In this document: positions 18,311 to 31,146 of the stretch, piece after piece
Numbering within the stretch: the first letter of the stretch is position 1
Layout: each line of letters opens with the position of its first letter
Assembly: GCF_900444995.1 (NCBI RefSeq)
Contig: NZ_UAPQ01000012.1
Coordinates: 1 to 64,000 of the forward strand
From: Actinomyces bovis
Lineage (GTDB): Bacteria; Actinomycetota; Actinomycetes; Actinomycetales; Actinomycetaceae
Length of the DNA stretch: 64,000 nt
Direction of reading: 5' to 3'
Notes under the pieces: model-generated
What the model saw: only the letters and a program-made list of their open reading frames with translations
The model's database searches: none
What the model was told of the DNA's origin: nothing
Translations under genes and position numbers: made by a program

Positions 18311-18348
18311 CGTGGGGCTGGACTGAGTTATCTCAGTCCAGCCCCACG
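18311..18348 (+). terminator. nrdE terminator hairpin with iteron motif in the loop
   Basis: Perfect 16-bp arms at 18311-18326 and 18333-18348 enclose the loop GTTATC. It lies 22 bp after the nrdE stop. The loop and adjoining stem read GTTATCTCA, identical to the first unit of the iteron array that follows. Confidence 0.85.
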
Positions 18349-18452
18349 TTATGTAGTTGCCAAGGCTAGTTATCTCCTCTCGGACCTTAGTTATCTCATA
18401 ACTGAGGGTGCTTATGTGATAACTAGGTGCAGTTAGCGCATAAGACGCTCCA
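18327..18452 (+). repeat. Downstream iteron array: six 21-bp units (GTTATCTCATAAC type)
   Basis: Units start at 18327, 18348, 18369, 18390, 18411 and 18432, exactly 21 bp apart. The best unit (18390) is the short palindrome GTTAT-CTC-ATAAC; the outer units keep mainly GTTATST. The array occupies the whole space between the nrdE terminator and the 3' end of the AlbA_2 gene. The same motif in the same orientation recurs upstream of that gene. Confidence 0.88.
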
Positions 18453-18460
18453 GGGGGTCC

Positions 18461-19921
18461 TCAGGCCGTCGGGAACCGGTAGCGGGTCCCTCTGTGTTTC
18501 CCGATTCTTTCGGCGAGCCCACGTCTAACGAGCTCGCCGAGCTCAGCGCGAGCGGTCGTTGAGTCAACCTGGGCAAATTGTCGATAGTCGCTGTTTGAGA
18601 GCTCCGCCCCCGAACGCATCCTGAGCAGGGCTTCCTTCTGTCCGGCAGATAGGCCTGCGAGATCAAGGGAGCCTAGCCAGGCCAGGTCCTTGTAGGTGTG
18701 AAGCGCATGGTTGGGGAAGCGCACGGTGAAACGCACGCCGTTGTCTGTGAAGCGCGGCGGCTCAAGGCCAGCTTCGGCAAGTGCTTGGCGGGTTGCCCGA
18801 ATGCCGGTGCCCATGGCCTCGATCACTCGGTCACCCGCACCCCCGACGTGTCGGCAGATCGTGTAGAGAAACTCATTTACAGCACTCTTACCATCTGGGG
18901 TTCCAAGCTGGTCGACCGATAAGCCCCACAGGCCGCCGGGGCTGGTCAGAACTAGGCCCGAATCAGTTAGGCGTAGCTCTACAGCGCGACCTGCCGTTGC
19001 CTCTGACAGGTCACGGTGGACCAGGGCGTTTGCCACAACTTCGCGGACTGCCACTAGGGGGATGGCGAAGGTGGTCTGTGAGCGTCCATCCCTGGAGACG
19101 ACCAGGGTGCTGCCGATGTTCTGTGACACCCACTCGACGGCGCCGTCGAGAATCTGTGGCAGTGCTCCGGTGAAATCCTTGCGGTTGCGACCCCGCTCGC
19201 CTTTTGCTTCTGCCTGCTTCGAGACAATGGCTGCGGTGAGGCTTAGGTGCGGAAGATGCTGTTGTGGGTAGGTGCCCAAGGCATAAAGTCCAGCGACTGT
19301 CGCTTCTCCGCTGTCTGTGATGGCGTTGAGGCGGAGCAGGATTTCCGCATCGGTGCAGGCTCTAAGTGCTGGGGTTGTCTGTCTGACGGAGATTGCGAAG
19401 TCTTTGACGGCCTGGTCATCTAGGTCGGCCCGAGACGTGCCAGGCACGGGTTCACGGTCATCGCGCGGGCGGTTATGCCGCCGTAGCAACTGCTGCTGTT
19501 CTTGGAGTGACATTGTGTAATCGCCGTCGTACTGCCGGATATACGCCTTGCCGTTCCAGGTGCAAGGCTTCTGGTTAACCGGCGCCTCGGAGACGTTGAG
19601 TGCAGCCACTTCGCGGGAGTCAAGGGTCAGGACGCGGACGTCCACTGTCAGCGGCACGCTCAACCCGCTGCGAGCCTGATTGGTGGCGCGTTCAGCGGTG
19701 TCGTGTGCATTGTCGAGGCCGACCACCGGGGCGTCGCCGCGCTCGTTGACGCCCAGAAGGACCGAGCCGCCCCCAGGCAGGTTGCCGAAGGCGCAAAGCG
19801 TTGGCCCCAGACTCTTAGCTGAGTACTCAGAGAAGGTCTTGACCTCTAGGTCCAGGCAGTCGCCACCTTCGAGAGAGAGCCTCGCGAGCGCCTCCTGGAG
19901 CTCGTTGGTTGTCGTGATCAT
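18461..19921 (-). CDS. AlbA_2 / HATPase_c_4 regulator with C-terminal winged helix (second copy)
   Basis: A 486-residue protein with ATG at 19921 (MITTTNELQEAL); an in-frame TTG at 19939 is a weaker alternative. Domain order: AlbA_2 at about residues 20-140 (LEVKTFSE, FGNLPGGGSVLLGVNE, YIRQYDGDY), an ATP-binding HATPase_c_4 at about 270-400 (AVREVVANALVHRDLSE, SPGGLWG, EAMGTGIRATRQAL), and a winged helix at the end (LSNSDYRQFAQVDSTTARAELGELVRRGL). It belongs to the same group as the gene at 5817-7562 but is clearly diverged. It is transcribed divergently from the cas operon, and iteron arrays of its own kind lie at both ends. Probably an autoregulated regulator or defence-linked switch; function unproven. 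Confidence 0.85.
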   Translation of the reverse strand: MITTTNELQEALARLSLEGGDCLDLEVKTFSEYSAKSLGPTLCAFGNLPGGGSVLLGVNERGDAPVVGLDNAHDTAERATNQARSGLSVPLTVDVRVLTLDSREVAALNVSEAPVNQKPCTWNGKAYIRQYDGDYTMSLQEQQQLLRRHNRPRDDREPVPGTSRADLDDQAVKDFAISVRQTTPALRACTDAEILLRLNAITDSGEATVAGLYALGTYPQQHLPHLSLTAAIVSKQAEAKGERGRNRKDFTGALPQILDGAVEWVSQNIGSTLVVSRDGRSQTTFAIPLVAVREVVANALVHRDLSEATAGRAVELRLTDSGLVLTSPGGLWGLSVDQLGTPDGKSAVNEFLYTICRHVGGAGDRVIEAMGTGIRATRQALAEAGLEPPRFTDNGVRFTVRFPNHALHTYKDLAWLGSLDLAGLSAGQKEALLRMRSGAELSNSDYRQFAQVDSTTARAELGELVRRGLAERIGKHRGTRYRFPTA

Positions 19922-19927
19922 GGATCG

Positions 19928-20065
19928 ATTATCTCTCAAGAGGGGTTGTTATCTCAATAAGTTGGGTAGTTATCTATGTCCACACTCTAGTTATCTCATA
20001 ACAAGGGATAGTTATCTCATAACTGCGGTCAGTTATCTCAATCAAGGTGGAAGTTAGGTGCGTTG
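19928..20065 (+). repeat. Upstream iteron array: seven 20-21-bp units (GTTATCTCATAAC type)
   Basis: Units start at 19928, 19948, 19969, 19990, 20011, 20032 and a degenerate one at 20053; all spacings are 21 bp except the first (20). Units 19990 and 20011 are perfect GTTAT-CTC-ATAAC palindromes. The first unit lies 7 bp upstream of the AlbA_2 ATG, so protein bound here would block its promoter or ribosome entry. The 21-bp period places all units on one face of the helix. Confidence 0.9.
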
Positions 20066-20140
20066 GAGGGTGGGGGCTGGGATCGGCGGGTTGTGAGCGA
20101 CGACGCCGTAGACTGGGGGAGCGCCAAGGCTCGCGTCCGG

Positions 20141-20241
20141 CATCTAGCTGGGCGTGATCGCCTGCTTCATTGAGGGTATGTGGTGCGGTCGAATGGGGCG
20201 CCCGAGCTGTTGCCGCCACTAGGTGGCACTTCACTCAGACC
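20141..20241 (+). ncRNA. Cryptic mini-CRISPR: candidate cas-regulating crRNA-like RNA
   Basis: Two degenerate copies of the CRISPR repeat flank a 32-nt spacer-like segment. The first (20141-20176) is 36 nt and keeps CTTCATTGAGG at the 3' end plus AGCT; its stem is replaced by GGCG-TGAT-CGCC. The second (20209-20241) keeps GTTGC at the 5' end and GCACTTCA in the 3' handle, with the stem replaced by GCCAC-TAG-GTGGC. Both keep a central hairpin, which suggests the RNA fold is under selection. The spacer (20177-20208) resembles the cas promoter region at 20275-20296. A possible -10 element TAGACT lies at 20109-20114. Similar cas-regulating RNAs are known in some other type I and V systems. Expression is unproven. 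Confidence 0.65.
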
Positions 20242-20274
20242 GCTTCCGCGAGGGGTCCTATCAATCGGATCTAC

Positions 20275-20336
20275 TATGTAGTGTGCTTGAAAGGGGTAGG
20301 GAAAGACTTGCGCACTCGGTGATCTAGGCCTAGCAT
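20275..20336 (+). promoter_or_regulatory. Putative cas operon promoter and cryptic-crRNA target
   Basis: A plausible promoter is -35 TTGCGC (20308-20313), a 17-nt spacer, then -10 TAGCAT (20331-20336). Just upstream, 20275-20296 matches the first 22 nt of the cryptic spacer at 17 positions, on the same strand. The preceding trinucleotide is TAC (20272-20274), which would be in the PAM position. An R-loop starting here would cover or abut the -35 element. Confidence 0.5.
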
Positions 20337-20379
20337 CTCTGTTTGTAATCGATCCGGCCTATCTCGACGAGGAGATCTC

Positions 20380-21582
20380 ATGTCTGCCGTACACGTCATC
20401 ACTCTTAAGCACCTTCAAGCAGCCTGCAGCCCGGGCGGCGCCAGTGTTCTGACCTCCGTAACCAAACTCGAGCCAGCGGCTGGCCCACACGCCTCCGTCG
20501 CCCCTGCGAAGTTCAGCGCCCGCGGGAACTCGGTCTTCGCCTACGAGCGCCGCTTCTACGACGGCGCCCCGGTCAACGTAGTCCTAATTGATTCCAAGCA
20601 GTCGCAGAACAACCGCGGTGAGGCGGCGATCGCCACGGCTATCGCCGATGGAGACCCAATCCTCTCGCGCATCCCCCGCATCGAACTCGTCTTCCCGGAT
20701 GGTGCGAGCTTCACGGACCTGGACCTGCCTCACCGTGCCTTTGATGGCCAGATCAGGGCTGGCGCGATAAACGGGAAGTCAGTGACGGCGGCGCCTGAGT
20801 ACCGGAGCCTTCGGGATGCCACAGTCACCCACGCGCGCCCACTGCTCGAGCGCAGCCCCATGACACTGCTGCTGGGTGGCTGGGATGCCTCCCGTAAGAG
20901 TCACCAGGGCCGTTACCGCAGCATCCTGGTGGGCGAGATCATCGGCATTCTTGCTGACCAGGAGGGTGCTGCCGAGGTCAACCAGTCGAAGCGCGGTGGT
21001 GCCCGGATCGACCCCCTAGGCATGCACATCGACCTGCCGGACAAACAGCGCAAGGCGATCGCTGATGCGCAGAAGGCTGAGCTATCCCGTAAGACCTACG
21101 ACGGTGCCGTCGGCCCGAAAGGCAAACCCTCCAACCTTGGTCTGGGGGGAATCCCACCGATGCTTGAACAGCTCGGCGGCGTCAGCTGCCGGGAGATTAT
21201 CCGCTCGCATGTGCTCAGCTTCGCGGCTCTGCGCGCCCTGCGCTTCGACTCCGTCACGCCACAGGGTGACGTCGCCTGCCGGATGGTGCTCGCTGCCCTC
21301 GCGCTGAACGCCCTGGCACGCTCTGACGCCGAGTTGCTCCTACGCGCAAACTGCGACCTGGTTGAGGCAGGCCCCGCCGTCGTGACCCTGGACAAGCGCT
21401 ATGGCGAGAAGGAGGAGTTCTCCCCCCTCACAATCGAGCAGGCCCAGGAACTCCTCAGTGAGGCCATCGCTTATGCGGAGAAGGAAGCAGGGCTGGTGTG
21501 GGACGGTTCCGTACTCAGGGTTGACGGAAACCCTGACGTTCAGGAGGCGGCGGGCGACGCTGACCGTGACGAGGACGCCTGA
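20380..21582 (+). CDS. csb1: Type I-G CRISPR protein Csb1 (Cas7)
   Basis: A 400-residue Cas7-family backbone subunit (GSU0053-type). Recognisable segments are PRIELVFPDG, the highly typical LLLGGWDASRKSHQGRYRSILVGEIIG (residues ~165-190) and GLGGIPPMLEQLGGVSCREIIRSHVLSFAALRALRF. Several copies would coat the crRNA in Cascade and impose the 6-nt periodicity of target pairing. ATG at 20380 follows GAGGAGATCTC. It is the first gene of the operon and its stop overlaps the csb2 start. Confidence 0.9.
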   Translation: MSAVHVITLKHLQAACSPGGASVLTSVTKLEPAAGPHASVAPAKFSARGNSVFAYERRFYDGAPVNVVLIDSKQSQNNRGEAAIATAIADGDPILSRIPRIELVFPDGASFTDLDLPHRAFDGQIRAGAINGKSVTAAPEYRSLRDATVTHARPLLERSPMTLLLGGWDASRKSHQGRYRSILVGEIIGILADQEGAAEVNQSKRGGARIDPLGMHIDLPDKQRKAIADAQKAELSRKTYDGAVGPKGKPSNLGLGGIPPMLEQLGGVSCREIIRSHVLSFAALRALRFDSVTPQGDVACRMVLAALALNALARSDAELLLRANCDLVEAGPAVVTLDKRYGEKEEFSPLTIEQAQELLSEAIAYAEKEAGLVWDGSVLRVDGNPDVQEAAGDADRDEDA

Positions 21583-23129
21583 TGACAAGCGTCGGCATCA
21601 CCGCGAGATTTCCGCTGGGGGTGTACCACGGGCATGCAGCAGACGGCAGCGCCGACTCATTCCCGACGCCGTTGCGCCTGTTTTCCGCCCTGGTTAACTC
21701 GGCTTACACAGGCACAACCACTGGCCCCGATGGCGCCTTGTCAGCAGCGACCTTGGAAGCGCTGAACTGGCTGGAAAACAACCCGCCAAGGGGCTTGTAC
21801 CTGCCACCAAGCAGTCCTGTTAATCCAAGTCAAACTAGCAGGGTCGCCTACCGCAAGACCGGCACCATAGAAAAGAAACAACCGAAGATCGCCCCCAAGA
21901 TGATCTCCGATGGCATTGCCCTGGCAGGCAAATTCGGTTGGATTTGGGAAGAGATGCCGGACTCCGTAAGAGAAATCCTGGCCCGCCTCTGTGAAGATGT
22001 TCCTTGCCTTGGTGAGATGGACAGTCCGGTCGTGTTGGAGGTGAGCAAGGCCGAGCCGAACTGGACCTGGCTGCCAGAAGCCACGGCCTTCACCCCCGGT
22101 GGACGGCGCGTGCCCGTGCCTGCTGTTGGGCGCCGGGCCGTGTTGGAGGCTTTGCACCAAGATTCTCGGCCACGCAAGGCACCGACAGAGAGCGCTGACC
22201 GCTTAGGTGAGACCAGCGACGCCGTCAGGCCATTTCCTGTGTCCATAGAGTGCACACGAGTGCTTCACTACGCGCCCAGGGGCCTGGAACGTCCAAGCAT
22301 GGGCTCACCTTGGAGTGATGTGCTTGTATTCCGCACTGAGGCAGGCGCGGGTGTGCTTCCTGCCGAGCAGCGGCTTGATTGGTGTGTCGGCTTCCACCGC
22401 GCGCTAGTTAGTCGGATTGGTGACGGGACGCCGTCCGTCATCACTGGTCGCTACCCGACTGACCGCTCAGTGCCAGCAAACCGCGTAGCTATTCAGTATC
22501 TTCCGGAGAGCTTGCTCTCTCTGTCGAATATCAAGCTGGATCATCCGGCACCAGGCGTCTTCTTGGTGATGATTCCAAGTGACATCAGCACGGATGACCT
22601 GAATGTCCTTATTGCGGCTCTAGCAGGCATGACCTACGTGACCTCGCGTTGGGGAAGGCTGCGCCTGCGGCGCCACGATGAGTTGGTCCTGACATCAGAG
22701 TTCTGGCATGCCCCGGCTGCGGGGGCGGTGCGCTTGTGGTCCCCAACGCCCGTCGCCGTGCCAGAGGTGACTCGACAAAAAGGCCCATGGACCTTTGAGG
22801 ACGCCATTTTGCTGTCCCTTGGTTTTGTCTGGCGGGACCGGCTTGAGCCGGTGGGCAAAGGCACGCAGGGGTACCGGTCCCTGGTTAAACAGGTTAGGGA
22901 GCGTGGCGCCGGGGTGAGTTGGTATCGCCGGACTGTCAAGAGCCCGTCCTCGTATGCGCACCGCATGCCCGAAGGCATGGTCGCCCAGCCATATACGGCT
23001 GTGCTGAGTTCTGGGGAGCTCACGGGCAACCAGGAACTTGTGGCAATCGGACAGAGCCGACACCTGGGCGGTGGGTTGCTCGCGCCGGTAGACCTGCCCG
23101 CAGAACTAGCTGAATCCCTGAAGAGGTGA
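21582..23129 (+). CDS. csb2: Type I-G CRISPR protein Csb2 (Cas5-Cas6 fusion)
   Basis: A 515-residue GSU0054-type protein. The N-terminal half is Cas5-like, starting with a RAMP strand and the FPTPLRLFSALVNSAY segment. The C-terminal half is Cas6-like and ends with the Gly-rich loop GQSRHLGGGLLAP. It should process pre-crRNA at the UUCG-capped repeat hairpin and hold the 5' handle of the crRNA. No separate cas6 exists in the operon, consistent with the fusion. ATG at 21582 overlaps the csb1 stop (TGATG). Confidence 0.88.
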   Translation: MTSVGITARFPLGVYHGHAADGSADSFPTPLRLFSALVNSAYTGTTTGPDGALSAATLEALNWLENNPPRGLYLPPSSPVNPSQTSRVAYRKTGTIEKKQPKIAPKMISDGIALAGKFGWIWEEMPDSVREILARLCEDVPCLGEMDSPVVLEVSKAEPNWTWLPEATAFTPGGRRVPVPAVGRRAVLEALHQDSRPRKAPTESADRLGETSDAVRPFPVSIECTRVLHYAPRGLERPSMGSPWSDVLVFRTEAGAGVLPAEQRLDWCVGFHRALVSRIGDGTPSVITGRYPTDRSVPANRVAIQYLPESLLSLSNIKLDHPAPGVFLVMIPSDISTDDLNVLIAALAGMTYVTSRWGRLRLRRHDELVLTSEFWHAPAAGAVRLWSPTPVAVPEVTRQKGPWTFEDAILLSLGFVWRDRLEPVGKGTQGYRSLVKQVRERGAGVSWYRRTVKSPSSYAHRMPEGMVAQPYTAVLSSGELTGNQELVAIGQSRHLGGGLLAPVDLPAELAESLKR

Positions 23130-23134
23130 GGAAC

Positions 23135-25825
23135 ATGATCAGCGTTGATGAGTTTGCTGACTTCTTCGCGGCCATTCACGACGGCGAACGCCCCTTTGCT
23201 TGGCAGGAGGAATTGCTCCATGCCCTCGTGAACGATGGGTGCTGGCCAGACCAAATCGCAGCACCAACAGGCTCTGGCAAGTCAGCGGTCGTTGAGATCC
23301 ACGTCTTTGCCAACGCTCTTGCGGCCTGCGGTCAGGGGGCGCGTGTACCTAGGCGGCTCGCCGTCGTCGTGAATCGGCGCGCGCTAACTGACGCGCACGC
23401 AGACCGGGCCGCCCAACTCCAGCGTCTGCTTAAAGAGGCCCCAGATGGCGGCGTTGTGGCAAGAGTCCGGGAGGCACTTGCGAGCTTGTGGGTGGAGGGG
23501 CGCAATCAGAGCGGCCCGCTGATGCTGGCAGTAATGCGCGGCGCAGCGGCGATTGACCGTGACTGGCTGGATGCGCCTGAGGCCTGTGGGGTCTTGTGTA
23601 TGACTCCTGCGATGTGGGGGTCAAGCCTGCTATTCCGGTCATATGGGGCCTGGCCCTTCGCACGGCCACGCCTGGCTGGTTTGCTTGCCTTAGATGCGGC
23701 CGTCGTCGTTGACGAGGCTCACCTGAGTCGGCAGTTGCTTGTGACGGCCCGGCGGGTCGCGGAACTCGTGGGCGCCAGTGCGCACAAGCTCGGCGTTCCG
23801 GCCCTACAAGCAGTGGAGATGACGGCGACGCCGACGAGCAACCAGGGCCGAGTCGTCGCTGTGACGGAGCAGGCGGTCTTAAAGGACTCGTGTCTGGCTG
23901 CACGAGTCGGTGCACCCAAGTCGGTCCTATATGTCCCGACCGGCACCTGGCCCACCAACGGCAAGATGACTCAAAAGTACCTTGAGGTAATCGTGGACCA
24001 AGTGGCTACTCAGGTGGCTGAGGCGCAGAGCTGGGCAGCGACGGGACCGCGGACAGTGGGCTGCGTCCTGAACCGGGTTGATTCAGCGATCCGTGTGGCA
24101 CAGGCTCTGCGCGAGCGAGGCCTGCGTTGCCGCACCTGGGTGGGCAGGATGCGTCCCTGGGATCTGAAGATGATGCGGCGGGAGGACCCTGACCTGTTCA
24201 CCACAGTGGGTTCAGATCAAGTTGATGTGCTGATCGCGACCCAGACTGTGGAAGTCGGGGTGGATCTAGACCTAGCGGCCCTGGTGACTGAGCTAGCTTC
24301 AGGTAGCGCGATCGCTCAGCGGGCTGGTCGAGTTAACCGTATGGCGCGCAGGCAGCGCGGGCCGGTGGTGGTGGTCGGGCCAGAGCTCAAAGCCAAGCTT
24401 GCGGATGATGTTCTGCCATACCAGGCAGCTGATCTGCGATCCGCGCGGGCTTGGGTGCTGGAACGCCAGGCTGTGGGTGACCTTTCGCCGTTGGCGGTGG
24501 TGTCTGCGCCGCCACCGGCAGAAGAGCCTCGCAGAATCCTTTGGCAGCGGCCTGAGCCATGGGATGTGAACCTGTGGGCTAGGACTTCACAGCGACTCGT
24601 GATTGAGCCAGAGCTTGACCTGTGGTTGCGCGATGACCTGGACCCAGAGGTTGATGGCGTGGGAGTTGTGCTGAGGGAGTTGGCGCAACTGCCAGACTCC
24701 TTGGCTTGTGAGTCGCTGCTGAGGGAACTGGAGCCGCAGGACGAGGAGGTCTTCCCGACCAACATCGGTGCGCTCCGCGAACTCGTTCGGCGGATTGCGG
24801 AAGTTAAGTCCGGGCCTTTGGAACGTTCAGTGCTTTGGCGGGACGGCGCGCCATTCCCGAGCTGGCAGGCGCTAGTTGATCAGGGTGAGGATAAGGCTTC
24901 TCGGGAGCTGCGCCCGGGTGACCTGTTGGTCCTGGATTCCGGAGTCCCATTGCTGACGGAGAACGTCGTCACTTCGGACGGCAAGGAGAAGGGGCACGCG
25001 GTGCCGTTGGCGGCTTTCCGTGAGTTTGCTGGCAAGGGCGCCAGTTTGGTCAGCGACGTCGTAGGCGTGGTGACGGATCCCGAGGAGTTAAAGGCCTTTG
25101 CCGATCTCACAGAAGAGGAGATTGCTGCGCGACTCGGCGGGACAATCGCCTTGCCTCCTGGGTGGCAAGAGGGAGAAGCCCCAGCCTGGGTGGTGGTGCG
25201 TGACGCAAACACGGTCTCCTGCGAAGCTGACCAGCACTCGATGTTGTCAGCTCGGGGGCGTGTAGGCCTAGAGGAACACAATGCCGCCGTTGCCCAGCGG
25301 GCACTGGCCTTTGGGAGGAGCCTGGGGGTGGCAGAGCAGGTTTCTGGGCTGCTGGCCGAGGCGGGGCGATGGCACGACGTCGGCAAGGCGGATGTGCGTT
25401 TCCAACGGGCGCTTTGGCGAAAGGATCCTGAAGGGTGCGAACTGCTCGCAAAGAGCGGTGCCACCAATCCCAAGGTGATCAAGCGAGCATGGGCGGACTC
25501 GGGGTTGCCGGGAGGTTGGCGGCATGAACTTGCTTCAGCGGCAGCCTATTGGGACAGCTGTGAGGCCGCCGGGCAGCCTGTGGAGGACCGTGAACTCGTC
25601 ACCAGGTTGGTTGGCACTAGCCATGGCCGAGGGCGCCCTATGTTCGACCACAGCGTTGAGCAGGCCGGGCCGGGACCTGTGGAAGCACTAGCCGAACTGA
25701 TTGGCGAGGGCGAATGGGAGTCGGTTGTGGCCAGGACGGACCGCAACTGGGGGCCTTGGGGCACCGCTTATTTGGAGGGCCTACTGCGAGCGGCTGGCTG
25801 CACGATCTCGGCGGAAGGGAAGTAG
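23135..25825 (+). CDS. cas3: Cas3 helicase-nuclease, type I-G (helicase first, HD last)
   Basis: An 896-residue effector that unwinds and degrades the target DNA. ATG at 23135 follows AGGTGAGG; a GTG at 23126 is in frame. The SF2 helicase is N-terminal: Walker A PTGSGKS (~45-51), DEAH at 193-196, the motif III-like EMTATPT and motif VI QRAGRVNRM. The HD nuclease is C-terminal, with WHDVGKADVRFQ (His746/747-Asp748 region) and upstream histidines in ADQHSML and EEHNAA. This helicase-HD order is the reverse of most type I Cas3 proteins and typical of the former I-U subtype. All motifs are intact. Confidence 0.92.
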   Translation: MISVDEFADFFAAIHDGERPFAWQEELLHALVNDGCWPDQIAAPTGSGKSAVVEIHVFANALAACGQGARVPRRLAVVVNRRALTDAHADRAAQLQRLLKEAPDGGVVARVREALASLWVEGRNQSGPLMLAVMRGAAAIDRDWLDAPEACGVLCMTPAMWGSSLLFRSYGAWPFARPRLAGLLALDAAVVVDEAHLSRQLLVTARRVAELVGASAHKLGVPALQAVEMTATPTSNQGRVVAVTEQAVLKDSCLAARVGAPKSVLYVPTGTWPTNGKMTQKYLEVIVDQVATQVAEAQSWAATGPRTVGCVLNRVDSAIRVAQALRERGLRCRTWVGRMRPWDLKMMRREDPDLFTTVGSDQVDVLIATQTVEVGVDLDLAALVTELASGSAIAQRAGRVNRMARRQRGPVVVVGPELKAKLADDVLPYQAADLRSARAWVLERQAVGDLSPLAVVSAPPPAEEPRRILWQRPEPWDVNLWARTSQRLVIEPELDLWLRDDLDPEVDGVGVVLRELAQLPDSLACESLLRELEPQDEEVFPTNIGALRELVRRIAEVKSGPLERSVLWRDGAPFPSWQALVDQGEDKASRELRPGDLLVLDSGVPLLTENVVTSDGKEKGHAVPLAAFREFAGKGASLVSDVVGVVTDPEELKAFADLTEEEIAARLGGTIALPPGWQEGEAPAWVVVRDANTVSCEADQHSMLSARGRVGLEEHNAAVAQRALAFGRSLGVAEQVSGLLAEAGRWHDVGKADVRFQRALWRKDPEGCELLAKSGATNPKVIKRAWADSGLPGGWRHELASAAAYWDSCEAAGQPVEDRELVTRLVGTSHGRGRPMFDHSVEQAGPGPVEALAELIGEGEWESVVARTDRNWGPWGTAYLEGLLRAAGCTISAEGK

Positions 25826-25829
25826 CACC

Positions 25830-28767
<2,938 letters not shown>

Positions 28768-28944: not shown

Positions 28945-29772
28945 GTTGCAGCTCTTTCGAGAGCTGCACTTCATTGAGGCCAGACCGGCCAGCAATGCTG
29001 GCGTCGACGGCAAGTTGCAGCTCTTTCGAGAGCTGCACTTCATTGAGGCCTCGGCACGGCCGCCGCTGTTACCGCCCTGTTGTGGGGTTGCAGCTCTTTC
29101 GAGAGCTGCACTTCATTGAGGCAAGTCGTTAGACTTAGAATCCGACATTGTAGGCGTTGTTGCAGCTCTTTCGAGAGCTGCACTTCATTGAGGCCCGAAA
29201 TTATCCGTCGTGCGCTCACGGACTTCCTGGTTGCAGCTCTTTCGAGAGCTGCACTTCATTGAGGCAAAAGTATAGTGGGAAACAAAGCCTGGACAAACGT
29301 TGTTGCAGCTCTTTCGAGAGCTGCACTTCATTGAGGCTATGCGGCGGGCACGTCCTTGCTCACCATCTTGGAGTTGCAGCTCTTTCGAGAGCTGCACTTC
29401 ATTGAGGCGAGCGCAAGCACCACCAGCCCCACGATCACGGACGCCGAGTTGCAGCTCTTTCGAGAGCTGCACTTCATTGAGGCAACGAAATCGCGTTCAC
29501 GTGCGATCAATTCAGACTTGTTGCAGCTCTTTCGAGAGCTGCACTTCATTGAGGCCCAGTGGGGTTCAGCATATCCCGCCGTCACATCCCCGGTTGCAGC
29601 TCTTTCGAGAGCTGCACTTCATTGAGGCAAGAGGGGACTCTCGCTCCCACCCTCACCCTCATCGTTGCAGCTCTTTCGAGAGCTGCACTTCATTGAGGCC
29701 ACCTGCCTGGACACGCCGTGCTCATATGGACGCAGTGTTGCAGCTCTTTCGAGAGCTGCACTTCATTGAGGC
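28945..29772 (+). CRISPR. CRISPR array, leader-proximal block: 12 repeats, 11 spacers
   Basis: Twelve identical 36-nt repeats start at 28945, 29014, 29087, 29159, 29230, 29302, 29373, 29448, 29520, 29593, 29664 and 29737. Spacers are 33-39 nt (33, 37, 36, 35, 36, 35, 39, 36, 37, 35, 37) and all different. The repeat begins GTTGCAGCTC and ends CTTCATTGAGGC. Its central hairpin is GCAGCTCT-TTCG-AGAGCTGC, an 8-bp perfect stem capped by a UUCG tetraloop. No spacer was seen to match elsewhere in the window. Confidence 0.98.
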
Positions 29773-29874
29773 CCGAAGGTCGCCGGGACTAGTAATGCCT
29801 GGCAGGTTGAGCATTGTCGCGTCATGCGGCGGTGGATAGAAGTAGGCCTTCCACCGCGCGAGCTCATCATCCAT
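29773..29874 (-). pseudogene. Fic toxin, N-terminal fragment (34 codons)
   Basis: The ATG at 29874 overlaps the antitoxin stop (TGATG), as in vbhA-vbhT-type operons. The peptide MDDELARWKAYFYPP and the following LPGITSPGDLR resemble the N-terminus of Fic toxins (tryptophan and YFYP, then a G-I-T-x-P-x-x-L segment). After codon 34 the frame runs straight into CRISPR repeat 12, so the Fic core with its catalytic histidine is absent. It cannot be functional. Confidence 0.75.
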
Positions 29875-30107
29875 CAGACATGCGCTGCAACCGCGTCCAC
29901 ACCTGCACGTTTCAGGATGCGGTGCAGGTACTCCTGCGTCGTGATCTGGCCACGAACGCGCATGACTAGAAAGGCGAGATCCTCACGGTTAGGTTCCCAA
30001 CCCTCGTGCCAGTTATCGGCGCACGCCTCAATGATACGGTCTCTCTGGCCCTCATCAAGACCTTCGAATAGGTCTGGCCAACGCTCCTCCAACTGCATTC
30101 CTGTCAT
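29874..30107 (-). CDS. VbhA-like antitoxin of a Fic toxin (orphan)
   Basis: A complete 77-residue protein with an excellent ribosome site (AAGGAGGAAAGC before ATG at 30107). Its core, IIEACADNWHEGWEP, followed by a helix and RGQITTQEYLHRIL, matches the VbhA-type layout in which [S/T]xxxE[G/N] blocks the Fic ATP site. Here the motif reads DNWHEG, so the first position is Asp rather than Ser/Thr, while the Glu that displaces the ATP gamma-phosphate is kept. Its toxin partner is truncated to 34 codons, so it is an antitoxin without its toxin inside a CRISPR array. Confidence 0.7.
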   Translation of the reverse strand: MTGMQLEERWPDLFEGLDEGQRDRIIEACADNWHEGWEPNREDLAFLVMRVRGQITTQEYLHRILKRAGVDAVAAHV

Positions 30108-30151
30108 GCTTTCCTCCTTGGCTCCAGTAATTGAGACTACCCGCTTAACGC

Positions 30152-30496
30152 CTATCGTGGGGTCCTCCCCGTTGGGATGACGCCGGCAGGCGTCGGCGCC
30201 AACGACTCGCCGCCGTTAAGGCTCTCCTCCACCTCGGCGGTGGCAGAGTTCAAGGCGGCGACCACCCACGCACCAAAAGCCGGATAGTCACCCGCACCGC
30301 GTGCGCAGACGAGGCGCCACGCACTACGCGCGCGCCCAAGGTCATCGGCACTGATTCGGACGGTCAGCCGCCGCATCTCACCCTGACCAGCGTTGCTGGT
30401 CTTGCTGGCGTTGGTGGCAGCTGGGAGTTCGGCGGGGTCGGGGCCGGTGGCCTTGGGGACCGTGATTGCCTTGCGGGGCTTGGGTTTTGGCTTCAT
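30152..30496 (-). CDS. parB: ParB-like centromere-binding protein of a plasmid partition system
   Basis: A 114-residue protein with a good site (AAGGAGAACGC before ATG at 30496). The N-terminus is basic and Pro-rich. The C-terminal part, MRRLTVRISADDLGRARSAW then PAFGAWVVAALNSATAEVEE and a SLNGGESLAPTPAGVIPTGR tail, resembles small ribbon-helix-helix-like ParB proteins of actinobacterial plasmids. It overlaps parA by 4 bp. With parA truncated it cannot drive partition; it may still bind DNA. Confidence 0.7.
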   Translation of the reverse strand: MKPKPKPRKAITVPKATGPDPAELPAATNASKTSNAGQGEMRRLTVRISADDLGRARSAWRLVCARGAGDYPAFGAWVVAALNSATAEVEESLNGGESLAPTPAGVIPTGRTPR

Positions 30497-30966
30497 GCGT
30501 TCTCCTTGGTGAGCAGCTCGACGATGGACTCCAAGGCGTTCGTGTAGTCACGAGCCTCGGCCCTGGGCACGGGAACACGGTTGGTGGCGGCTGTGGCCAC
30601 CACCTCACGCTCGGGCAGGCGTTCAGGCAGCAGGAGGCTTCCGTGAACCTCCCGTAGCACGTCCATCCAAGCTTCACGGTCCAACCGGTCCTTGCGCCAC
30701 TTGTTTACGACAACCCCCAGAGTCTCCAGGCTAGGGTTGTAGTAGCGCTTCACGGTGTTGATGGTGGCCATGAGCTCGTCCACGCCCTCCACGGAGGAGG
30801 CCCTGGGCTCTGTCACCACCAGGACGTGACTGGCTGCCGTCAAGCAGGCCAGGGTTAGGGTGCCTAGGCTGGGTGGGCAGTCGATGAGCACGACGTCGTA
30901 GTCCTCCGCAGCCCCCTCTAGGGCAGCGCGCAGGCAGTGCTCTCTGCCTGGCTGGTTGTCGGCCTC
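30493..30966 (-). pseudogene. parA: ParA ATPase, C-terminal fragment (5' end lost at CRISPR repeat)
   Basis: 157 residues remain. They include the Walker A' / switch region DYDVVLIDCPPSLGTLTLACLTAA, VVTEPRASSVEGVDEL and LGVVVNKWRKDRLDREAW. The N-terminal ~95-100 residues, including the deviant Walker A loop KGGxGKT, are missing because the coding sequence ends at repeat 13. The open frame continues upstream through two repeats, but those residues (SSRKSCN-type) are translated repeat and not ParA. No ATPase activity is possible. Confidence 0.85.
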
Positions 30967-31146
30967 GTTGCAGCTCTTTCGAGAGCTGCACTTCATTGAG
31001 GCCTGGTTTTGGCTGCTTCGAAGGTCTGGCAGATCAGGTTGCAGCTCTTTCGAGAGCTGCACTTCATTGAGCTTGGCTCCTCGCACGTGACGGTGACGGG
31101 CGCCCCTCAGGTTGCAGCGCCTTTTAGGGCCGTGCTGGTTTAGGGG
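30967..31146 (+). CRISPR. CRISPR array, distal block: one intact and two decaying repeats
   Basis: Repeat 13 (30967-31002) is perfect. Repeat 14 (31038-31073) differs in its last two bases (CT for GC). A strongly decayed repeat 15 (31111-31146) keeps GTTGCAGC and matches 22 of 36 positions without gaps. Spacers are 35 nt (31003-31037) and 37 nt (31074-31110), normal for this array. Progressive decay marks this as the old, leader-distal end. Confidence 0.85.

Follow-up and report, generated by a model that had tools for sequence, protein, structure and literature searches.

A pair of degenerate CRISPR repeats around a single guide, standing ahead of csb1 in Actinomyces bovis, is very probably a creR-type autorepressor gene of a type I-G CRISPR-Cas system, and an element on another contig of the same genome (C8) most likely exploits the same switch. 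The pair (20141-20241) lies in the 64,000-nt stretch of DNA analysed here, called the window below, to which all coordinates without a contig name refer. On this reading the mini-CRISPR is a new variant of CreR, and the element-borne copy is the boldest part of the proposal.

The mini-CRISPR and its match ahead of csb1

The operon meets the requirements for type I-G, with csb1, csb2, cas3g, cas8g, a cas4-cas1 fusion and cas2 together with a CRISPR array (Table 1). All the cas genes are full length, similar in size to their counterparts in relatives; the true start of cas8g is probably further in, near 25830.

Table 1. Features of the mini-CRISPR, its target, the type I-G locus and the matching sites on other contigs (E, E-value)
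Feature	Position	Strand	Remarks
Putative creR -10 region (GCCGTAGACT)	20105-20114	+	by eye; not in consensus scan
psiR1, first degenerate I-G repeat	20141-20176	+	would give 5' handle ATTGAGGG of guide RNA
Guide (spacer), 32 nt	20177-20208	+	first 22 nt match cas promoter site at 17
psiR2, second degenerate repeat	20209-20241	+	3' hairpin, stem 20211-20217/20222-20228
PAM of regulatory target, TAC	20272-20274	+	TAS PAM derived independently from array protospacers
Regulatory target (protospacer) before csb1	20275-20306	+	pairing within 20275-20296
Putative csb1 promoter, TTGCGC-N17-TAGCAT	20308-20336	+	by eye; no hit in strict scans
csb1 (cas7g)	20380-21582	+	TIGR02570, E 3.4e-12; PADLOC Cas7g, 6.2e-29
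csb2 (cas5-cas6 fusion)	21582-23129	+	TIGR02165, E 3.8e-85
cas3g	23126-25825	+	TIGR02621, E 7.7e-217; length range as in relatives
cas8g	25701-26870	+	PADLOC Cas8g, E 6.9e-89, residues 46-370; no NCBIfam hit
cas4-cas1 fusion	26861-28468	+	NF049935, E 1.6e-144, below its cut-off; PADLOC Cas1g, 2.4e-244
cas2	28468-28767	+	TIGR01573, E 1.3e-12
CRISPR array, 12 identical 36-nt repeats	28945-29772	+	
Array spacer 1	28981-29013	+	33/33 to contig C8 (C8:27714), PAM TAG
Array spacer 2	29050-29086	+	37/37 to chromosomal C2, ~710848, minus strand, PAM TAC
Detached array fragment	30967-31073	+	spacer 31003-31037 inside
Detached-fragment spacer	31003-31037	+	35/35 to C8:1667, PAM TAG
Second mini-CRISPR	C8:18254-18365		directly after lytic transglycosylase/M23 peptidase gene

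An ectopic pair of degenerate repeats flanking one guide near a cas operon is one criterion for a CreR, and alignment to the array's own repeat shows that it is met here. The element's coordinates and sequences are exactly those given in an earlier note on this DNA, which also described both repeats as having an intact hairpin and 32 nt as a normal spacer length for this array. The first description is true of psiR2, whose 7-bp hairpin with an ACTA loop has a z of -2.4 and is equalled by 5 of 200 shuffles, but not of psiR1, where the short stem has no advantage over shuffled sequence (40 of 200 do as well); weak psiR1 hairpins are common to the three loci considered below (the window, its orthologue G013 and a Trueperaceae contig). 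The second fails narrowly, the array spacers being 33–39 nt long. The sequence CTTCATTGAGG, the 3' end of the repeat, is present exactly within psiR1 at 20165-20175. In several Actinomyces loci the csb1 ribosome-binding region (TCTCRAYGAGGAG, 20366-20379 in the window) resembles it as well, probably by coincidence.

Between the first 22 nt of the guide and 20275-20296, 17 positions agree and five (6, 10, 12, 14 and 18) do not, just as had been claimed. This is the top non-self 22-mer score of the guide on either strand of the window (the next is 15), and it was reached by none of 3000 dinucleotide-shuffled spacers in the 139 nt between psiR2 and csb1, nor by any of 2000 when a PAM was demanded as well. 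Elsewhere in the genome a sequence present in four copies scores higher, at 18/22, but its mismatches at 5 and 8 fall in the seed and the PAM position reads CCT; a further site scores 16/22 with CAA there. Because of the 18/22 sites, confidence in the main explanation was lowered, by the smallest of steps.

The PAM was derived from eight Actinomyces arrays, whose spacers were compared with the loci collected, at a protospacer identity of at least 85%. Eight of ten spacers have TAG or TAC (TAS) directly 5' of the protospacer, the exceptions being L032 spacer 14045 (TCT) and L051 spacer 18930 (TGT; present twice and counted once); several matches under 85% likewise lack a PAM. Phage records compared with five arrays yielded one protospacer with a PAM and weak hits for two arrays, and no hits for two of the five. 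The PAM of type I-G is quoted as TTN in the portion of PMC9638904 available. The regulatory target has TAC in the window, in G013 and in the Trueperaceae contig. A partial guide match to the cas promoter region, beyond chance and with a working PAM, is a further criterion for a CreR; it is met, with the exact promoter placed by eye.

A plausible -35/-10 pair had been noted beside the match, and one can be picked out by eye (TTGCGC-N17-TAGCAT), with a like-placed TTGTTC-N17-TACGCT in G013, but a strict sigma-70 scan of 19930-20420 found no promoter there. The position of the target bears on whether the element could instead be a CreTA-like addiction module, whose guide represses a toxin gene rather than cas, so that loss of Cascade is lethal. 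The build is shared: in the haloarchaeal type I-B system, CreA has a degenerate repeat pair around a partial guide, which brings Cascade to a promoter and lets it bind without Cas3 action (PMC9458426, accessible sections). Here, however, the target is directly before csb1, and the by-eye promoter leaves about 40 nt to the csb1 ATG at 20380, hence little room for a toxin; none was seen, without a dedicated search for toxin RNAs. To that extent an addiction module seems very improbable.

Further upstream, clusters of AGTTATCTC repeats at 18326-18440 and 19930-20060, several of them spaced 21 or 42 bp, flank a Schlafen-AlbA/RecG-C gene (18461-19939, minus strand) and look like operator arrays of that regulator. 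Similar repeats are found upstream of csb1 in G013, there without an accompanying Schlafen-AlbA/RecG-C gene.

Conservation in Actinomyces and a parallel in Trueperaceae

Eleven close Actinomyces csb1 loci were compared, the window and ten relatives with csb1 72–84% identical to that of the window. Distribution is patchy: within 600 nt upstream of csb1 the element is present in just two of the 11, the window and G013, and absent from the other nine. G013, the sole orthologue found, has a Csb1 84% identical to that of the window and carries the element in the same place, after nrdE. The earlier note had proposed conservation of the repeat remnants and promoter match in homologous loci as a check; G013 keeps both repeats and match, and the nine other loci have no element in those 600 nt.

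Covariation of guide and target, which the same note had named as the decisive test, is found in this one orthologue. Over the 22 positions, the window and G013 differ at seven in the spacer and eight in the target, and six of these coincide (hypergeometric p = 0.0023). At positions 2 and 17 the changes are compensatory, with both sides changed and pairing kept. Positions 6, 12 and 18 are unpaired in both loci, as is position 10; relative to the window, G013 loses pairing at 11, 21 and 22 and gains it at 14, for a plain count of 15/22. Type I Cas7 flips out every sixth base. Guide-target co-evolution in relatives, another CreR criterion, is thus met in a single orthologue only.

Conservation between the two loci is, judged from the alignment, confined to what a guide RNA would need. 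The handle stretch (20164-20176) is conserved at 13/13 positions, the psiR2 hairpin with the following CTTC (20209-20232) at 23/24, and the PAM and seed at 11/12, as against 23/46, 14/29 and 27/62 in the flanks. The psiR2 tail (20233-20241) is conserved at just 3/9 and would not be part of the mature RNA. Immediately after the hairpin GC, psiR2 has A in the window and G in G013, in each case as in the array repeat of that locus. The putative creR -10 region is identical in G013, and the flank just upstream of it is the poorly conserved one at 23/46.

These islands are hard to reconcile with a decayed old array, in which the repeats would be relics and the promoter match either accidental or a former self-acquired spacer. 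The strongly degenerate repeats, the nine of 11 close loci without the element and the other self-matching spacers in the strain would all fit such a history. Handle, hairpin and seed as conserved islands, covariation in G013, a match that no shuffle in 3000 equalled and a parallel case in another phylum do not, and decay is judged very doubtful as an explanation.

The parallel emerged when 50 csb1 loci, not all of them from different genomes, were scanned for any ATTGAGG handle followed by 22 nt that match a nearby site. Most of the 105 rows returned are arrays and palindromes, and a TAC or TAG PAM accompanies only three: the window, G013 and a contig of an uncultured member of the Trueperaceae, a family of the phylum Deinococcota. 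The third mini-CRISPR is also beside csb1, on the other strand, with the handle of its own 32-copy array (ATTGAGGA), a 37-nt guide and a 7-bp psiR2 hairpin. Its target (L055:9790-9811, with TAC) is paired at positions 1–5, 7–11, 13–15, 19, 21 and 22 and unpaired at 6, 12, 16–18 and 20; a promoter ahead of csb1 (TTGTGG-N17-TATGAT, again placed by eye) has its -10 directly next to the paired part.

Chance was estimated in the same way for the three loci, with 2000 shuffles each. The plain match count was reached by 0 shuffles in the window, 17 in G013 and seven in the Trueperaceae; with the PAM added, the numbers fall to 0, three and 0. When the count was restricted to the 17 unflipped positions among the first 20 and the PAM was required, none of the 2000 did as well in any locus, with the reservations that this measure was picked after the pattern had been seen and that the Trueperaceae locus was selected from 50.

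With the window mini-CRISPR as query, 45 of 49 genomes gave matches at E-values up to 1, the best beyond the window and G013 being two in G015 (2.4e-5 and 4.5e-5), followed by the one on contig C8; one of the G015 hits and a G004 hit were inspected, and neither has repeats. Among the matches listed, exact CTTCATTGAGG occurs in 11 of 12 genomes searched, and a backward control in none; 16 such hits outside arrays show no second repeat in the 84 nt read. In IMG/VR there were no matches to the handle-plus-guide pattern or to psiR2; among the 99 stretches with TGCRCTTCATTGAGG, 80 were scored for a stem upstream, and reading the best 14 revealed no mini-CRISPR. A reverse-strand repeat run in Prauserella aidingensis (L054:9150-9340), about 650 bp upstream of csb1 and with two repeats only 18 nt apart, is perhaps another regulatory remnant.

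A second mini-CRISPR in an element-like region, and self-matching spacers

The C8 match (C8:18275-18309, E 5.8e-5) belongs to a second mini-CRISPR, arranged as psiR1 with the handle ATTGAGGA, a guide, psiR2 with an 8-bp stem and a 20-bp terminator-like hairpin; the terminator scan lists the psiR2 hairpin itself too. A psiR1 stem (CTCCC/GGGAG) is present in the fold of the whole 113 nt and absent when psiR1 is folded alone. The repeat form is GCGCTTC, as in G013 and G033, the window having GCACTTC. A guide RNA from this locus would be about 70 nt long and start AUUGAGGA. The surroundings encode a T4SS coupling protein, a MobA-type relaxase, ParA, a resolvase and two tyrosine integrases, and by its gene content this end of the contig resembles a conjugative or integrative element, with borders that remain undetermined; no tRNA was found beside it, and hence no attachment site. 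Thirty loci around relatives of the adjoining SLT/M23 gene were scanned, yielding the element itself and one exact CTTCATTGAGG in L143, which is apparently coding and has no second repeat in the 68 nt read.

The C8 guide matches 20275-20296 at 20 of 22 positions (mismatches at 10 and 18), its top match in the window. A genome scan with positions 10 and 18 left free and three mismatches allowed returned this target site, the C8 guide itself, the host guide and nothing else. Both guides have T18, against the target, so the C8 guide may descend from the creR of another strain, although this is an inference.

The host array bears on what this second guide might do. Three of the 12 window spacers read have a perfect match in the same genome, with a PAM (Table 1). 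Two of the matching sites, C8:27714 and C8:1667, flank the mini-CRISPR on either side within the element-like end of C8, and the third, on C2, lies among genes named DUF58/MoxR-like from sequence alone. The arrays of G013 and G033 gave no perfect self-match among the candidates scored (9 of 46 and 6 of 39), the best being 83%, in G033. A G013 array spacer (L031 spacer 13313; L060:5662) matches the element-like end of C8 at 30/36 with PAM TAG, so that relatives of the element may be targets in other species. In the window the array is itself interrupted at 29773-30966 by a stretch holding a ParA-like gene, which breaks off precisely where the next repeat begins (30966/30967). Identity between 30403-30966 and the ParA region of the C8 element is 79%, suggesting that a related element inserted in the array or recombined with it.

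Perfect self-matches alongside full-length cas genes imply that interference is weak or shut off. Of the causes on hand, repression by both guides at the creR site is the simplest, and the element most likely uses this switch to lower cas expression and so escape the two array spacers that match it. The fuller proposal, that its guide mimics the host creR, commandeers the I-G Cascade and silences cas, so that the element and the self-matching spacers are tolerated, is favoured only slightly, and the guide as the cause of tolerance is inferred. Protein anti-CRISPRs are common on mobile elements, five of ten element ORFs examined have no Pfam family, and a protein inhibitor on the element could equally account for the self-matches; it is not excluded. 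Under that explanation, or with an unseen cas defect, CRISPR would be off for another reason and the element's mini-CRISPR would be a bystander. Cas genes as long as those of relatives argue against a defect, and a guide that, within three mismatches, matches only the cas promoter site and the two mini-CRISPRs argues against a bystander. This explanation is considered unlikely.

Much less credit is given to a crRNA sponge, a Racr-like decoy that titrates Cas proteins whatever its spacer. According to the part of PMC10651486 that was accessible, Racrs are virus-encoded solitary repeat units, one of which was shown to act on Cas6f and Cas7f, and an aberrant Cas subcomplex is formed. The C8 copy resembles them in that it would be a CRISPR-mimicking RNA on a mobile element. 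The Racr criterion of a solitary repeat without a guide is not met, however, by the element or by any of the three creR-like loci, which have two repeats and a promoter-matching guide; in both mini-CRISPRs of this genome the seed matches the cas promoter site with a PAM present, and guide and target co-vary in G013, which a sponge of irrelevant spacer content does not explain.

Proposed regulation and relation to known systems

As we picture it, Csb2 would process the creR transcript to a crRNA-like RNA about 70 nt long, starting AUUGAGGG at 20169 and including the handle ATTGAGGG and the psiR2 hairpin; type I-G Csb2 cuts 3' of the hairpin and leaves an 8-nt handle, as described in the available part of PMC9638904. 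Loaded into a Cas7g/Cas8g Cascade, this RNA would pair with the site that adjoins TAC and directly precedes the csb1 promoter, and a Cascade on 20272-20306 would reach the -35 region placed at 20308. There is little pairing past position 23 of the guide. With only the PAM-proximal part paired, binding of Cascade would be permitted and cleavage by Cas3 would not, much as with CreA (PMC9458426), so that cas transcription would be repressed rather than the DNA cut. The result would be a feedback loop that eases as Cascade is occupied by competing crRNAs or by inhibitors, and that the better-matched element guide would push toward silence. Transcription, processing, repression and the lack of cleavage are all inferred. 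The earlier note's autorepressor reading is supported by the covariation in G013, the TAS PAM at both targets and the Trueperaceae case, without any expression data.

CreR has been reported for types I-B, I-E and V-A (PMC13131331), and PMC12737573 describes such RNAs as widespread across type I and in V-A. Like these, the window element would yield a crRNA-like RNA that pairs partially with the region of its own cas promoter and makes a repressor of the Cas effector; it differs in its type I-G effector (Cas7g, a Csb2 fusion and Cas8g), its TAS PAM and its mobile-element copy, and in that repression is inferred. No type I-G case was found in the literature searched, which did not cover Shmakov et al. 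2023 or Liu et al. 2023, and no claim to be first in I-G is made.

Shmakov et al. 2023 reportedly describe stand-alone mini-arrays, also in phages, with guides partly complementary to cas promoters, the phage ones being said to be proposed to lower effector expression. The C8 copy shares the stand-alone repeats and partly complementary guide; it differs in lying in a conjugative-element-like region, in being aimed at the very site of the host creR and in having its region perfectly matched by two array spacers.

If the proposal is true, RNA-guided cas autorepression extends to type I-G, in two phyla, and the C8 copy would act as an anti-CRISPR by overdriving a feedback loop that belongs to the immune system itself. 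More important than the extension is the test case: a single genome combines a host feedback guide, a mobile-element copy of it and perfect self-matching spacers, and their coexistence makes the idea of mobile elements overcoming CRISPR by seizing its autoregulation testable by a deletion of about 110 bp.
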